From Gallionella sp. (GTDB taxonomy: Bacteria > Pseudomonadota > Gammaproteobacteria > Burkholderiales > Gallionellaceae): a DNA stretch of 64,000 nt. The notes under the pieces are model-generated. The model saw only the letters and a list, made by a program, of their open reading frames with translations, had not been told where the DNA came from and did no database searches. The position numbers and the translations under genes were made by a program. The stretch is from the NCBI GenBank assembly GCA_030700315.1, contig JAUYJO010000135.1, positions 1 to 64,000 of the forward strand, written 5' to 3'. Of this stretch, positions 3,537 through 9,183 are shown piece by piece. Position 1 is the first letter of the stretch, and each line of letters begins with the position of its first letter.

Positions 3537-3758
3537 TCAGGCAGCCAGCTTCAGGCTCGACACCGCTTTGTTTAGCTTGGCTTCCGGTACGCCAAGGCGC
3601 AGGGCTTTGATCTCTTCGGGGCTGAGTGTATGTACGGGTGTCAGGCAGGCTTCGTCAAACTCGCGCATGGTCTGTTTGTTGATAGCACCCACATCATGCA
3701 GCGCCTCCATCGTTTCATGGATGGCGGCGAGGGCATCGCTGCGATATTTTTTAGGCAT
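3537..3758 (-). CDS. HigA-like antitoxin, missing its helix-turn-helix
   Basis: The first 50 residues (MPKKYRSDALAAIHETME, then MREFDEACLTPVHTLSPEEI) match the N-terminus of HigA/NadS-type antitoxins. Intact members are about 95-105 residues and continue into an XRE helix-turn-helix after EEIKALR. Here the sequence diverges right after that point (LGVPEAKLNKAVSSLKLAA) and stops at 73 residues, so the DNA-binding segment is deleted. A good AGGAGGT ribosome-binding site precedes the ATG. No toxin gene is recognisable on the upstream side; a separate HigA gene lies there. It is probably a remnant. Confidence 0.55.
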   Translation of the reverse strand: MPKKYRSDALAAIHETMEALHDVGAINKQTMREFDEACLTPVHTLSPEEIKALRLGVPEAKLNKAVSSLKLAA

Positions 3759-3796
3759 CTTTTTCTACCTCCTCAAACTGTCCGTTTGCAACCAGC

Positions 3797-4132
3797 TCAA
3801 GCGACAGCCAGCATCAAATGCCCGACAGGTTCAGAGGTCGGCTTCACCTTGATTTCGATGTCGTAGCCGAGCCGGTTCAGACAGTCCATCAGCTTGCGCT
3901 CGGACAGGTTGGAGAAGTCGCCGCGCATCATGTCGGACACTTTTGGCTGGGTGATCCCCATGCGTTTTGCCGCTTCCTGTTGAGTCAGCCCGAGACGGCG
4001 CATGGCCTTCCTGATCTCGATTACCAGGCCCGTTTTAATCTTGAGTTTTTCCGCGTCGGGCAGACCGAGATCGGCATACACGTTGCCTGAACTGCGCTGC
4101 ACCTCGATACCGTCAATGACCCGTTTTTTCAT
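3797..4132 (-). CDS. higA: HigA-type XRE antitoxin
   Basis: A 111-residue protein with a helix-turn-helix at about residues 40-75: EIRKAMRRLGLTQQEAAKRM and then GITQPKVSDMMRG. It is followed by LSERKLMDCLNRLGYDIEI, typical of HigA antitoxins that pair with phage Gp49-like HigB. It binds its own promoter and neutralises HigB in the family. Here the higB upstream is broken, leaving the antitoxin gene intact without an active toxin. The 3' end (EPVGHLML) recurs in degenerate form at 6398-6459, evidence of a former second copy. Confidence 0.8.
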   Translation of the reverse strand: MKKRVIDGIEVQRSSGNVYADLGLPDAEKLKIKTGLVIEIRKAMRRLGLTQQEAAKRMGITQPKVSDMMRGDFSNLSERKLMDCLNRLGYDIEIKVKPTSEPVGHLMLAVA

Positions 4133-4138
4133 TTCGTA

Positions 4139-4406
4139 ACTCCTTTGCGAGCGTATCGGCCACTTTCAGCCTGGCGCGGATGGATGCCTCTAGAAATCCA
4201 GATTTCATCCCAACTGCGGCGTTGCGGAAAAAATTTCTTGCTTAGGGATGCGGAAATTGTAAAAGTACCTTGGCCGCATCGTGTTGATCCCCAGCTTGAG
4301 CGAGGGAAAGCGCGTAACCGAAGAGCCGCCGCACGTCGGTTGGCAATGCCATCAGGTCTCTGTGACTGCTTCCTATCCATTCAAGCGGTTTTTCTGTGTC
4401 GGGCAT
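4139..4406 (-). pseudogene. higB: HigB-type toxin, broken
   Basis: An ATG at 4406 opens a 54-codon frame with WIGSSHRDLMALPTDVRRLF and then GYALSLAQAGDQHDAAKVL. These match the first half of Gp49-like HigB toxins. The frame stops at 4242. The remaining ~100 bases before higA carry only a scrap of the C-terminus in another frame (KSGFLEASIRARLKVA). Intact HigB proteins are about 110 residues, so the centre is deleted and out of frame. The antitoxin downstream at 3797-4132 is intact. Confidence 0.65.
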
Positions 4407-4534
4407 GTTTTGATTATACATGTACTGGTATATTCAACAAGCATCACGTCAGCTCGCATTCTTTGGCTTGGTACAACAAACATCGCGCGGTTACAATCAC
4501 GCTCTTTATTCACCTTAGCTTATGGGGTATTCCA

Positions 4535-4741
4535 ATGGCGGAGAATGAAGAAGATTATTTGCGCCAGTGTTTGGAGCGAAACATTTGCCCTGTTTGTCAG
4601 CAATCGATTACCAAAAAGTTTGGAAGCGGCCAATTCAAGGACGGGGTATTTTGTTCCTTGAATTGCTACACAGAATGGAACAAGGCTTTGCTGATACGAC
4701 GACACCAGGACAAGGCACAGAAGAGTAAACCCGATGAATGA
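4535..4741 (+). CDS. Small zinc-ribbon protein
   Basis: This 68-residue protein has a CPVCQQ pair near residue 18 and an FCSLNCYTEW pair near residue 40, giving a four-cysteine zinc site. The rest is charged, with a lysine-rich tail. The long upstream ORF extension is rejected because it runs back through the higB region on the other strand; the ATG at 4535 is the first plausible start. Its last 8 bases overlap the dCTP deaminase-like gene, so the two are translated together. It may be an accessory or regulatory partner of that enzyme. I do not recognise a named family. Confidence 0.6.
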   Translation: MAENEEDYLRQCLERNICPVCQQSITKKFGSGQFKDGVFCSLNCYTEWNKALLIRRHQDKAQKSKPDE

Positions 4742-5942
4742 AGTGATAACGAAGACCGATTCAACAGCAAAACCTGGTTCGATGGCTTCTGCGCGCGTGA
4801 GCGACTATACCGGAATCCTTCCGAGTCAGAAGATTGAGGAAATGCTGAGTAGAGGCGAGATCAAAACGATGCTGATGCCACTTGATCATGACCAAGTCCA
4901 GCCCGCCAGCATAGACCTGCGCCTCGGCGATTATGCCTATCCCGTAGATACGAGCTTCCTTCCCGGCAAGGGAATGACAGTACTCGAAAAATTGAAGCAG
5001 CTTGATGACCGGTTTGATGCCTTCGGAATCAACCTTAAGAATGGCGCTGTCCTTGAAAAGGGGCGGGTATACGTTATTCCTCTTTTGGAATCCATTTATT
5101 TGAGAAGTGAAGTGGCTGCCTTTGCCAACCCCAAGAGTTCAACCGGCAGGCTGGATATTTTGACGCGCCTGATTGCCGATGAAGCGACCAGTTTTGACCA
5201 AGTAAGCGAGGGTTATAAAGGCGGGCTCTACATAGAGGTTGCCCCCCGCAGTTTCAGTGTCGTGGTAAAAACCGGCACCCGCTTGAACCAGCTAAGATTT
5301 CGCCGCACTCGGGGAGAGGGGGCAAAAGCCATCAAGGCTTCGGACTGGAAGCAGCTTCTCAATGAAGGCCAGATTGTCGATTCCAGTGACCACGAGACAA
5401 ACGCGAGATCAATCCAAACAGGCCTGTTACCTTTCACCGTGGATTTGGAAGGCTCCGGCAAAGAAAACGAAATAATCGGATACCGCGCGAAAAAACATGC
5501 CAGGCGTATCGACCTGGAAAGGCGGGATTATGATCCGCTGGATTTCTGGGAGCCAATCCTTGTTAACAAAACGTCTTCGCTGATATTGGACCCAGATGAG
5601 TTCTATATTCTCATGACGAAGGAAGCGATCGCAGTGCCGCCGGATTATGCGGCTGAAATGCTGCCGTACGACACCCGCGCGGGCGAATTCCGTGTTCACT
5701 ATGCCGGATTTTTCGACCCCGGATTCGGCTGGAATGCCAAGTTAAATAAAGCGGGAAGCAGCAGGGGAGTTCTGGAAGTGCGCTCGCACGAAGTACCCTT
5801 CCTGCTTGAGCATGGGCAGACGGTCGGATGGCTTCGATATGAGCGTATGGCGGCTCGGCCCGAGCTTCTGTACGGGCAAGGCATCAGCTCTAACTATCAA
5901 GGACAGAGCCTTAAATTAGCCAAGCAGTTTAAGCAATTGTGA
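4734..5942 (+). CDS. 2'-deoxycytidine 5'-triphosphate deaminase-like protein (two-domain Dcd)
   Basis: A 402-residue protein of the Dcd/dUTPase fold. The first half contains QVQPASIDLRLGDYAYPV (around residue 55) and FANPKSSTGRLDIL (around 130), the substrate-site motifs of dCTP deaminases. The second half repeats the fold, with FDPGFGWN and VLEVRSHEVPFLLEHGQ. This double-length architecture fits the alphaproteobacterial-style dCTP deaminase family, which converts dCTP to dUTP. It overlaps the zinc-ribbon gene by 8 bp. The setting, between decayed toxin-antitoxin genes, suggests horizontal arrival. dCTP-depleting deaminases are known in phage defence, but those characterised are a different architecture, so a defence role here is only a possibility. 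Confidence 0.75.
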   Translation: MNEVITKTDSTAKPGSMASARVSDYTGILPSQKIEEMLSRGEIKTMLMPLDHDQVQPASIDLRLGDYAYPVDTSFLPGKGMTVLEKLKQLDDRFDAFGINLKNGAVLEKGRVYVIPLLESIYLRSEVAAFANPKSSTGRLDILTRLIADEATSFDQVSEGYKGGLYIEVAPRSFSVVVKTGTRLNQLRFRRTRGEGAKAIKASDWKQLLNEGQIVDSSDHETNARSIQTGLLPFTVDLEGSGKENEIIGYRAKKHARRIDLERRDYDPLDFWEPILVNKTSSLILDPDEFYILMTKEAIAVPPDYAAEMLPYDTRAGEFRVHYAGFFDPGFGWNAKLNKAGSSRGVLEVRSHEVPFLLEHGQTVGWLRYERMAARPELLYGQGISSNYQGQSLKLAKQFKQL

Positions 5943-5971
5943 AGTTGGCGTTAGCGAATACGTGGTCGAAT

Positions 5972-6130
5972 TTAACCAATCAGATGCAATCCCTTTGCGC
6001 CGCCGCGAACTGCATCCGCCACCAAACGACGGTCAAAAGTCGCGAGTTTGCCGCCGTGTGCGCAAGCCAACGCAAGCAGGCAGCTATCCGTCACTTGGGC
6101 GGAATTCAGTATGCGTGTTGCCCCGCGAAA
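5972..6130 (-). pseudogene. C-terminal remnant of a VapC-type toxin
   Basis: The minus strand reads SAQVTDSCLLALACAHGGKL, then ATFDRRLVADAV and a stop at 5972. This is the C-terminal third of a PIN domain, including the conserved TD and TFDRR positions. No start or N-terminal half is found in frame. Degraded sequence continues to about 6190. Confidence 0.6.
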
Positions 6131-6216
6131 ACAACACCCTCAAACAGGTGCATTCGAAAGTGCTGGCCAACCCCATCCACCGTTCGCACTGAGCCAGGTA
6201 AGCCCCGCATCCGCGA

Positions 6217-6396
6217 GGCAAGGCGTGAGCAGGAAACAGCATACATCCCAAAACCACCCCCCCTCCAGCTCCCCCTTGTCAGGGGGAGAGCCATGCTCCT
6301 CCCCTGACAAGCATGTCCTGAGCTTGTCGAAGTGGGGGAGGCTGGGAGGGGTTTGGGCGCTACCGATAGAATCACCACCACTCTCGAATGCACCCT
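6217..6396. repeat. Dispersed ~180-bp repeat, copy 1
   Basis: It contains ggcaaggcgtgagcag, a C-rich block, paired gggggag/ctcccc stems and gctaccgatagaat. The same ordered blocks recur at 61881-62068 after acs, and a shorter piece occurs near 43904-43948. The inverted C/G blocks could form stem-loops. Confidence 0.7.
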
Positions 6397-6397
6397 C

Positions 6398-6459
6398 CTC
6401 AAACCGTCCGTTTGCAACCAACTCAAGCGACAAACCAGCATCAAATGCCCGATTGGTTC
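6398..6459 (-). pseudogene. 3'-end scrap of a HigA gene
   Basis: About 60 bases match the end of the higA gene and its downstream flank at 3775-3835, reading EPIGHLML on the minus strand. Nothing else of the gene is left. It marks a second, lost HigA copy. Confidence 0.5.
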
Positions 6460-6518
6460 AAAGGGAAAACACGTAGCCTCATTCGCTCAAAATAATCCAG
6501 AGCGCCCGAATTTCTGAA

Positions 6519-7391
6519 TCAGTCATAGTCCACATCCAGCTCGCTGCATGCGTAGAAATTCTGAATTTCGGTGATGACGGCTTTGATTCTGGCTTTCGAC
6601 AGGATTTTCTTGATGATCGTGTTTCTGTACTCGTCCATGCATTCGCGCAGGATGGGGTGGTATGTGGGCGGGATTTTTTTCAGCAATGCGCCCCATCCCG
6701 CATCGATATCCGGCGGTGCTTCCCGGACGCGCCTGATCAGGCGCTCGATCTCTTTTTGCCCTGCCCGCGCGACAATGCGGCCGTCATCGGCAATCGCGAA
6801 TATCACCGCGATTGCGATCACCGCATGCGCATCCAGATCGGTGTCTTTGACCGGCCCGGCGCAATGTTTTTGGCGCAGCCATTTTGCGCAGGACACGATC
6901 TTCTGGTTGTTTTGCCGATCCTGCAATTCGCGCTTATAGACATCATCGCCCGCCCATGACGCGCCGGGGTCTGCTCGGCAAATCTCCGCGAACAGCACTT
7001 TGATATCGCGCTGCTGCACAAACGGATCGTTGTCGAACTCTGAAACGAACACGGTAAATGGCAGGGCGGACAATTCCTTGATATGCCTGAAGCCCATCTG
7101 AAAAACATATTCCGCGCCGTGATGCAGCAGAAAGGACAATTGCGCATTACCGTCTTGCGGAATATTCGCTTGGCTGATCCCCAGCGAGATACATCCCACC
7201 GTCAGATGAAACGCTTCGAGCAAGCCATCCGCCGTCCGTTCATTGGTAAATTTTTTGGCGACAAGCACGGTGATGCCGCTGAGCTCATCGATAAGGGTCT
7301 GCGCCTCTTCCTGATGATCCGCGCGCCGGGCCAGCGCTTCGAGCGCCGACACCAGATGCGGAGGGCGCGTGGTGATGTGGGCAAGTTTCAT
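6519..7391 (-). CDS. Unrecognised protein, last gene of J-domain operon
   Basis: A 290-residue soluble protein. I do not recognise the family. It is largely helical by composition, with an N-terminal EALARRADHQEEAQTLIDEL helix, a middle with FTVFVSEFDNDPFVQQRDIK, and a hydrophobic stretch AVIAIAVIFAIADDG near residue 195 that looks more like a buried core helix than a membrane span. The C-terminus ends in acidic residues (SELDVDYD). It follows the 262-residue gene by 41 bp on the same strand and should be co-transcribed with the two other unknown genes and the J-domain gene. No signal peptide or metal motif is seen. Confidence 0.6.
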   Translation of the reverse strand: MKLAHITTRPPHLVSALEALARRADHQEEAQTLIDELSGITVLVAKKFTNERTADGLLEAFHLTVGCISLGISQANIPQDGNAQLSFLLHHGAEYVFQMGFRHIKELSALPFTVFVSEFDNDPFVQQRDIKVLFAEICRADPGASWAGDDVYKRELQDRQNNQKIVSCAKWLRQKHCAGPVKDTDLDAHAVIAIAVIFAIADDGRIVARAGQKEIERLIRRVREAPPDIDAGWGALLKKIPPTYHPILRECMDEYRNTIIKKILSKARIKAVITEIQNFYACSELDVDYD

Positions 7392-7432
7392 GGCAGGCTT
7401 ATCGGTAACATGCGACCTCTAGCGGTTGCGCA

Positions 7433-8221
7433 TCACGCAAAAATATCCTCACCCAGGCTCGGGCGCGTGCCTTTTTTCGGTGTGCTGGCCGCTTTTCCCG
7501 GTACTTGCTTGCGCAGGCGCAACAGCAAATCGTGGGTGGCTCTGGCGAGCGCGAACTCATGATGATATTCGTCGTCATCGCCCTCTTCGGAGCGTGCGCG
7601 CAATTGGTTTTCGCCGGGCACCCAGTCGGGGAACATCTCGAACAGCACCCGATCCCACGCATCCGCATCGGCCCGCGCTATTTCCAGCGCCAGGGGAATC
7701 ACATCGTGATCGGAAGTCGTCTGACCGCTGCTGTGCGCACCGCGCGCGTGGATGTCATTGGCGAGCTCGATGATCTCGCCGGTGGCGGTCGAGAACAGCA
7801 CGGCAAAAGCGGTTGTCCCCCAATCGGTGGCTAACGCCGCATGGATCAGCGCCGCGCGCCGCTCCGCATCGTCGGTAGAAAAAACAATTCCGTGGATATG
7901 CGCGAACAGGGACTCGGCCAGCACCTCCGGCTCATCCTCAATCATGTCCTCGCTCCAGGTCGCGGCGAAAAAGGCCAGGCTCTCGGCCCATGCCTTGGGC
8001 GAAATCAGCATCGTGGCCAGCGACAACTTTCCGCCATCGAAAGCGGACAAATGCATCGCGGCCACCTGCGGCTCCAGCGTATCCAGCACCGCCACTACCG
8101 CCAGATCGCCGAATTGCTCCGCCGTGTCATTGATCGCCTCCTCCGCATGGGCGGTAGAGCCAGACAACACCAGCTCGGTCACCTGTCGGCTGATTGCCGG
8201 AAAATTGGATTTATCAGCCAT
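7433..8221 (-). CDS. Unrecognised protein, third gene of J-domain operon
   Basis: A 262-residue acidic, alanine-rich protein without signal peptide or membrane span. The N-terminal half reads as helical repeats (QVTELVLSGSTAHAEEAIND, and later VAVLDTLEPQVAAMHLSAF). The C-terminal quarter has an acidic patch (RSEEGDDDEYHHEF) followed by a basic tail. It overlaps the upstream 180-residue gene by 8 bp, so the two are probably made in fixed ratio. No catalytic motif is recognised. The repeat-like helices could form a scaffold or client-binding surface; that is a guess. Confidence 0.6.
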   Translation of the reverse strand: MADKSNFPAISRQVTELVLSGSTAHAEEAINDTAEQFGDLAVVAVLDTLEPQVAAMHLSAFDGGKLSLATMLISPKAWAESLAFFAATWSEDMIEDEPEVLAESLFAHIHGIVFSTDDAERRAALIHAALATDWGTTAFAVLFSTATGEIIELANDIHARGAHSSGQTTSDHDVIPLALEIARADADAWDRVLFEMFPDWVPGENQLRARSEEGDDDEYHHEFALARATHDLLLRLRKQVPGKAASTPKKGTRPSLGEDIFA

Positions 8222-8756
8222 TTTCGTCCTCGCGTGTATCGAATAGATCGATCACATCCTGGCTAGGTACGCCCCGCTCATCGTCATCGCCATCATCGAA
8301 ATTCGTGTCGCTATCCTCCTCTTCTTCAGAGGCTTCAAGCGAATTGTCCACATGCGTCCAGCGGTGGGTGTTCTTGAATAAAAATGACGTGAGGATCGCC
8401 TTGCGCGCCAGTTCCGGGTTGTTGTCGGCAACGGTGGACAAAGCCCTGGCCGCCTCGGCATCCGCACAGGACACCATTGCGATCACCTTCGCGGCATCGC
8501 CCTTGTCATATTGCTTGCACTGTTTCAGCAGCCCGGTCGGATCGTCAAAGCTCAGATAATCGGCCAGCGCAAAGCTCAACAGATTCACATCGTCGATCTC
8601 CGTGCCCTTCGCGTATTCGCCGATCAGCGACTTGATGACACTCGCATAGTTCTTCCGGTCGGGCGGCTCGCCCAGTGTGTCCTCGATCTGGATGCCCAGC
8701 TCGCGCGATTGATAAACAAATTCGTGATGGATGTTTTTATTCATTGGTTTATTCAT
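8214..8756 (-). CDS. Unrecognised protein, second gene of J-domain operon
   Basis: A 180-residue protein with a charged, helical N-terminal two-thirds (SVIKSLIGEYAKGTEIDDVN, and NPELARKAILTSFLFKN). The C-terminal tail is strongly acidic (EASEEEEDSDTNFDDGDDDE), which usually means a disordered or chaperone-like region. It lies 21 bp downstream of the J-domain gene and overlaps the next gene by 8 bp. The family is unknown. The start could be the first ATG (8756) or the ATG four codons later, since both give MNK. Confidence 0.6.
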   Translation of the reverse strand: MNKPMNKNIHHEFVYQSRELGIQIEDTLGEPPDRKNYASVIKSLIGEYAKGTEIDDVNLLSFALADYLSFDDPTGLLKQCKQYDKGDAAKVIAMVSCADAEAARALSTVADNNPELARKAILTSFLFKNTHRWTHVDNSLEASEEEEDSDTNFDDGDDDERGVPSQDVIDLFDTREDENG

Positions 8757-8777
8757 GAGGGTTCGTAAGTGAATTGT

Positions 8778-9077
8778 TTAATGGCTATCTTGCGGCATAA
8801 CTACGCCGCAGTGATCGAACAGCGAATGCCATAAAGTGCGCGCCTCGTTTTCAGGATCGAGAATGATGCGATTGTTCAGGCTCTGGTTGTATTCGGCCCG
8901 TTTTTTCGGGTCAGAAAGCAACTCATATGCCGTCTTGATCGCATTGAATCTGATCTCCGAATTCGAATGCGAGCTTCTGTCTGGATGGTGGTGCATCGCA
9001 AGCGACCGGTACGCCTTTTTGATTTCATCGGTCGTCGCGGTCGGTGAAACACCAAGGATGTTGTATAGGTTTTCCAA
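8778..9077 (-). CDS. Small J-domain (DnaJ-like) co-chaperone
   Basis: A 99-residue protein that is almost entirely a J domain. It reads LYNILGVSPTATTDEIKKAY, then the HHHPDRSS loop with the HPD tripeptide that activates Hsp70 ATPase, then AYELLSDPKKRAEYNQ. It lacks the G/F linker, zinc fingers and C-terminal domains of DnaJ, so it is a type III J protein. The C-terminal 30 residues (EARTLWHSLFDHCGVV) may bind its partners. It is the first gene of a four-gene minus-strand operon whose other members are unrecognised. A GGAGGC ribosome-binding site lies just upstream of the ATG. Confidence 0.85.
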   Translation of the reverse strand: MENLYNILGVSPTATTDEIKKAYRSLAMHHHPDRSSHSNSEIRFNAIKTAYELLSDPKKRAEYNQSLNNRIILDPENEARTLWHSLFDHCGVVMPQDSH

Positions 9078-9183
9078 CGGGTGCCTCCTGTGAGGCGGAG
9101 ATTTTACACATTAGCCGGAACGGGGTATGGAAAATTGCAGCTATTTCCTGCCTCTGCATCAAGGGTGTAATAGCTTGAGAGAA

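Follow-up and report, generated by a model that had tools for sequence, protein, structure and literature searches.

What does a short J protein do at the head of an operon whose other products carry no Pfam domain? The question is raised by positions 6519-9077 of the window, the 64,000-nucleotide stretch of a Gallionella sp. contig (JAUYJO010000135.1) that was analysed here, in which a first-pass annotation had placed four tightly spaced genes on the minus strand. Open reading frames read from the sequence confirmed the four-gene operon, and both the coordinates and the spacings proved exact: the J gene lies 21 bp from the second gene, the second overlaps the third by 8 bp, and 41 bp separate the third from the fourth. 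All four reading frames are kept in order among relatives at identities down to approximately 50-70%, and because they are conserved and ordered in this way we take them to be genuine genes. The 8-base overlap between the second and third genes is preserved in most loci. The gap between the third and fourth genes ranges from 7 to 289 bases among relatives, the longer gaps of 110-290 bases being found in L010, L014, L015, L017, L020-L023 and L034. No RNA element was found in or beside the operon at Rfam gathering thresholds, a promoter scan of the operon gave no promoter-like site, and a terminator scan gave terminator-like sites that were not above chance.

We think it very likely that this operon is a diverged betaproteobacterial version of atcJABC, in which the J protein would recruit DnaK to AtcC and AtcB and so aid growth in the cold. 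In Shewanella oneidensis, atcJABC is a four-gene operon that encodes a J protein of 94 amino acids and three others of 20, 29 and 34 kDa; AtcA, AtcB and AtcC are without recognised domains (PMC6715715). Deletion of atcJ, atcB or atcC, but not of atcA, severely impairs growth of S. oneidensis at 7 °C. AtcJ stimulates DnaK and binds AtcC via its last 21 residues with a Kd of 7 nM, and AtcC binds AtcB (PMC6715715). Contact between AtcB and RNA polymerase is described in a meeting report (PMC7871303).

The first gene of the window operon (8778-9077, minus strand) is atcJ-like by its PF00226 match, its NCBIfam AtcJ match and its alignment with true AtcJ. It encodes a minimal J protein of 99 amino acids, a size in keeping with that of AtcJ, which has about 94 amino acids and consists of a J domain and almost nothing else. 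The J domain (PF00226, DnaJ; E = 2.1e-24, residues 3-64) is the sole Pfam domain among the four proteins, and its HPD lies at residues 31-33, numbered identically to that of S. oneidensis AtcJ. The protein matches the whole of the NCBIfam AtcJ model, NF050028, with 68.6 bits, which is under the 150-bit cut-off of what is an equivalog model, narrower than the AtcJ family; the AtcJ of locus L043, from our comparison set, scores 180 bits against the same model. The start codon is TTG, as it is in 29 of 33 relatives, and direct reading of the sequence places an AGGAGG ribosome-binding site (9084-9089, minus strand) six bases ahead of it. The remaining J-domain matches in the window's genome sit in longer reading frames, and dnaK is present in that genome.

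The C-terminal extension of the J protein links it more closely to AtcJ. The tail, NNRIILDPENEARTLWHSLF, aligns with NNVIVTDPAAAMRELWDQFY of true AtcJ, and DP..A..LW is common to both. It contains a PX7W motif, PENEARTLW, at residues 75-83 (8829-8855, minus strand), which we propose as the AtcC-docking tail. Weber et al. are said to have described PX7W as the signature of AtcJ, with a tryptophan that reportedly governs AtcC binding. Among 34 Gallionellales-type J proteins the motif is complete in 32 and its tryptophan is present in all, the proline being absent in two. When the window tail was shuffled, 4.9% of the shuffled sequences contained PX7W.

A short leading J protein could, of course, make an operon resemble atcJABC with no common descent behind the likeness. 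The general DnaJ models, which outscore the AtcJ model on the J domain of protein 1, would fit such a coincidence, as would the second protein with its lack of AtcA homology. We consider this hardly credible, however, because the third and fourth proteins, placed in the operon as AtcB and AtcC are, show reciprocal and specific profile homology to these two with negative controls, and because intermediate genomes exist. For these comparisons, Atc loci were fetched from gammaproteobacterial genomes; true Atc loci have the same layout as the window operon, and one of those fetched, L043, exceeds all four NCBIfam cut-offs (NF050028 for AtcJ, and NF047888, NF047889 and NF047890). As bridging sequences we used intermediates that belong to a further gammaproteobacterial family and to one genome of the window's order. 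Each hhalign comparison was controlled with 30 column-shuffled alignments and with cross-family comparisons; no cross-family comparison scored above 23.2.

The fourth gene (6519-7391, minus strand; 290 amino acids, predicted all-helical) is identified as the atcC homologue by the NCBIfam AtcC model, by hhalign and by its structural model. Against AtcC, hhalign gave a probability of 96.7 and an E-value of 3.2e-10 over 217 columns, with a score of 75.9 and a shuffled maximum of 24.4. All 38 window-type C proteins were matched by the gammaproteobacterial AtcC HMM, the best at 3.4e-10, and in the opposite direction 11 of 11 were matched; aligned identity between the two types is about 20%. The first-pass annotation had allowed a known domain to the first protein only and had called the operon an orphan with unrecognised products. 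The former statement holds for Pfam, but not for NCBIfam, in which the AtcC model weakly matches the fourth protein (E = 9e-4, under its 370-bit cut-off) and 12 of 30 of that protein's relatives (best 2.4e-6); the latter has to be given up, as the operon belongs to the atcJABC family.

The third gene (7433-8221, minus strand; 262 amino acids, predicted all-helical and repeat-like) is the atcB homologue by hhalign. Compared with gammaproteobacterial AtcB plus bridges, it gave a probability of 96.4, an E-value of 1.1e-9 and a score of 69.6 (shuffled maximum 18.9), the homology spanning only the N-terminal half of the protein, about 126 columns; without the bridging sequences the match is weak (E = 0.11). 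An HMM of the window-type B proteins matched 11 of 11 AtcB sequences, the best at 1.3e-3. On these profile comparisons, we conclude that protein 3 is a homologue of AtcB and protein 4 a homologue of AtcC, and the controlled hhalign comparison of the two largely refutes the idea of an unrelated operon. Structural models of both are all-helical, with a pLDDT of 74 for protein 3 and 86 for protein 4. The third protein was modelled as a stack of helices, so that its earlier description as repeat-like seems fair, and our impression, and it is only that, is of a helical-repeat adaptor that might suit a binding role. Sequence searches of the PDB gave no significant relative for the window B and C proteins or for AtcB and AtcC, and a PDB fold search with the B and C models gave no significant match (best E = 0.74 and 0.60). 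Weak first-pass matches to the T7SS protein EccA and to AadA were at chance level.

The second gene (8214-8756, minus strand; 180 amino acids) stands in the atcA position. As had been noticed at the outset, its product has an acidic tail: D and E make up 44% of the last 45 residues, compared with 15% of the first 130, and 44% is also the mean for gammaproteobacterial AtcA tails. It has no NCBIfam match, and its hhalign comparison with AtcA, bridging sequences included, was at chance level (E = 0.2, score 14.5, shuffled maximum 20.1), for which reason we treat sequence homology to AtcA as unproven. Its equivalence to AtcA is suggested by position, length and acidic tail. S. oneidensis does not need AtcA to grow in the cold (PMC6715715).

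If the four genes act together, they should be inherited together. Searching with protein 3 found 34 bacterial loci, mostly labelled Gallionella or Nitrosomonadales, and in all 34 of these Gallionellales-type loci the neighbouring operon genes are present and ordered wherever the contig suffices. The gene set stays together in Burkholderiales and gammaproteobacterial genomes too, and intermediates with the complete order are found in one genome of the window's taxonomic order (G207, locus L045) and in three genomes that belong to a different genus of that taxonomic order. Even a deeply diverged A-B-C set (L074, genome G910, approximately 4041-6540) keeps its J gene adjacent, inverted and convergent just after C. 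The co-occurrence check proposed in the first-pass annotation therefore came out in favour of a single unit, and the genes were not found separately. In trees of B and of C, the window groups with other Gallionella-type sequences. One MAG carries two complete J-A-B-C operons (loci L002 and L011), two versions side by side, and genome G1178 has two AtcC-type genes, on contigs C4 and C6.

The surroundings of the operon are not inherited with it. None of the window's flanking genes that were tested is common to the relatives' loci, except for one LysM/M23 match of 34%; since flanking genes are unshared while the four genes co-occur, the operon keeps together and its surroundings do not. Of 100 genomes from the window's family, 40 have AtcC (32 of the 75 of good quality), and the operon is therefore an accessory trait. 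A class-wide search with a mixed AtcC alignment recovered the window's genome alone among 370; presence is patchy, and evenly drawn samples consequently miss carriers that family-level searches find.

Such an accessory distribution among non-conserved neighbours, with toxin-antitoxin remnants a few kb away, would fit defence cargo, and an immunity module is among the readings that the first-pass annotation had put forward. We find an anti-phage or other immunity module very improbable. PADLOC models match none of the four proteins, and on that ground the defence reading was rejected; the toxin-antitoxin remnants are at least 2.4 kb from the operon; the nearest recognisable flanking genes are housekeeping-like (dcd on one side; radical SAM, M23/LysM lipoprotein and pcm genes on the other); and the homologues have a demonstrated role in cold growth (PMC6715715). 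On the dcd side, the gene at positions 4734-5942 is convergent to the operon and encodes a long-type dCTP deaminase of 402 amino acids that has both a DCD_N and a DCD_C domain. Further off, a 300-base direct repeat with 97% identity (352-651 and 1784-2083), each copy of which overlaps a DUF2442 gene, flanks a PIN-domain toxin-like gene (982-1359), forming a duplicated toxin-antitoxin-like segment. Similar peptides (SVCNQLKRQ...) are read from plus-strand ORFs at 3568-3852 and 6332-6517, suggesting a short intergenic repeat that falls below our 40-base repeat search.

By analogy with S. oneidensis, we suggest that the bindings and the cold phenotype described there would hold in the window's lineage. 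AtcJ would recruit and stimulate DnaK through its J domain and would dock on AtcC by its short C-terminal PX7W tail; AtcC would bind AtcB, so that DnaK would be brought to the AtcB-AtcC pair. The target of that pair is probably RNA polymerase, a step that we extend to the window's lineage by the same analogy, and DnaK acting at this target would support growth at low temperature. The earlier proposal that the J protein and helpers dedicated to it form a specialised stress chaperone module is thus borne out, the module being of the atcJABC family (PMC6715715).

Because the NCBIfam equivalog matches are below cut-off or absent, a function equal to that of AtcJABC is not guaranteed, and the same machinery could have another job, with the J protein, AtcC and AtcB bringing DnaK to a different client or process and not chiefly serving cold growth. 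Besides the low equivalog scores, this would accommodate a second protein that is not recognisable as AtcA, the patchy presence within the family and the two copies in G1178, and it recalls that expression of the Shewanella operon barely changes with temperature and that the authors of that study leave space for further roles (PMC6715715). Set against it, the binding parts are kept (PX7W tail, AtcC and AtcB), and the literature that we found on the Atc family demonstrates no function besides cold growth. We regard it as unlikely. About as unlikely is a more novel reading, in which the Gallionellaceae-type operon would be a distinct functional branch that retains the J-AtcC-AtcB core, has AtcA replaced or reshaped and directs DnaK to another client or against another stress, while certain genomes maintain both versions next to each other.

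The identification as a diverged atcJABC gives three domain-less proteins, from relatives of iron-oxidising environmental bacteria, a place in a chaperone circuit that has been studied by experiment. It also indicates that the divergence of the AtcJ-AtcC-AtcB core exceeds what present family models capture. The diverged sequences narrow the key parts to the PX7W tail and the shared half of AtcB, and they offer another lineage for studying the part that DnaK plays for RNA polymerase in the cold. Conservation of Atc in environmental proteobacteria is already known, to judge from the title of Weber et al. (2023, Environ Microbiol 25:2447) as cited in PMC10939069, and because the literature already reports it the advance made here is modest. 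What is new, itself modest, is that three otherwise unrecognised proteins can be named and that a shortfall of the current family models is exposed.

How, then, does the window operon compare with known systems? Weber et al. reportedly delineated an AtcJ subfamily with PX7W, mostly from aquatic beta- and gammaproteobacteria, whose operons are said to hold homologues of atcA, atcB and atcC, and the window operon fits that description. Compared with atcJABC of S. oneidensis, it differs in that its proteins fall under the NCBIfam equivalog cut-offs or are without a match, its second protein is without detectable homology, its J gene starts at TTG and its lineage is that of Gallionellaceae-type betaproteobacteria. 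It is alike in the J-A-B-C order, the tight spacing and the protein sizes, in a J protein that is short, has its HPD at 31-33 and carries PX7W in its C-terminal tail, and in having homologous AtcB and AtcC and an acidic-tailed second protein. HscB with IscU and HscA offers a more distant parallel: the window has no Fe-S scaffold and AtcJ lacks the C-terminal domain of HscB, but in both systems a class C J protein is encoded beside a dedicated partner and links a specific client to an Hsp70.
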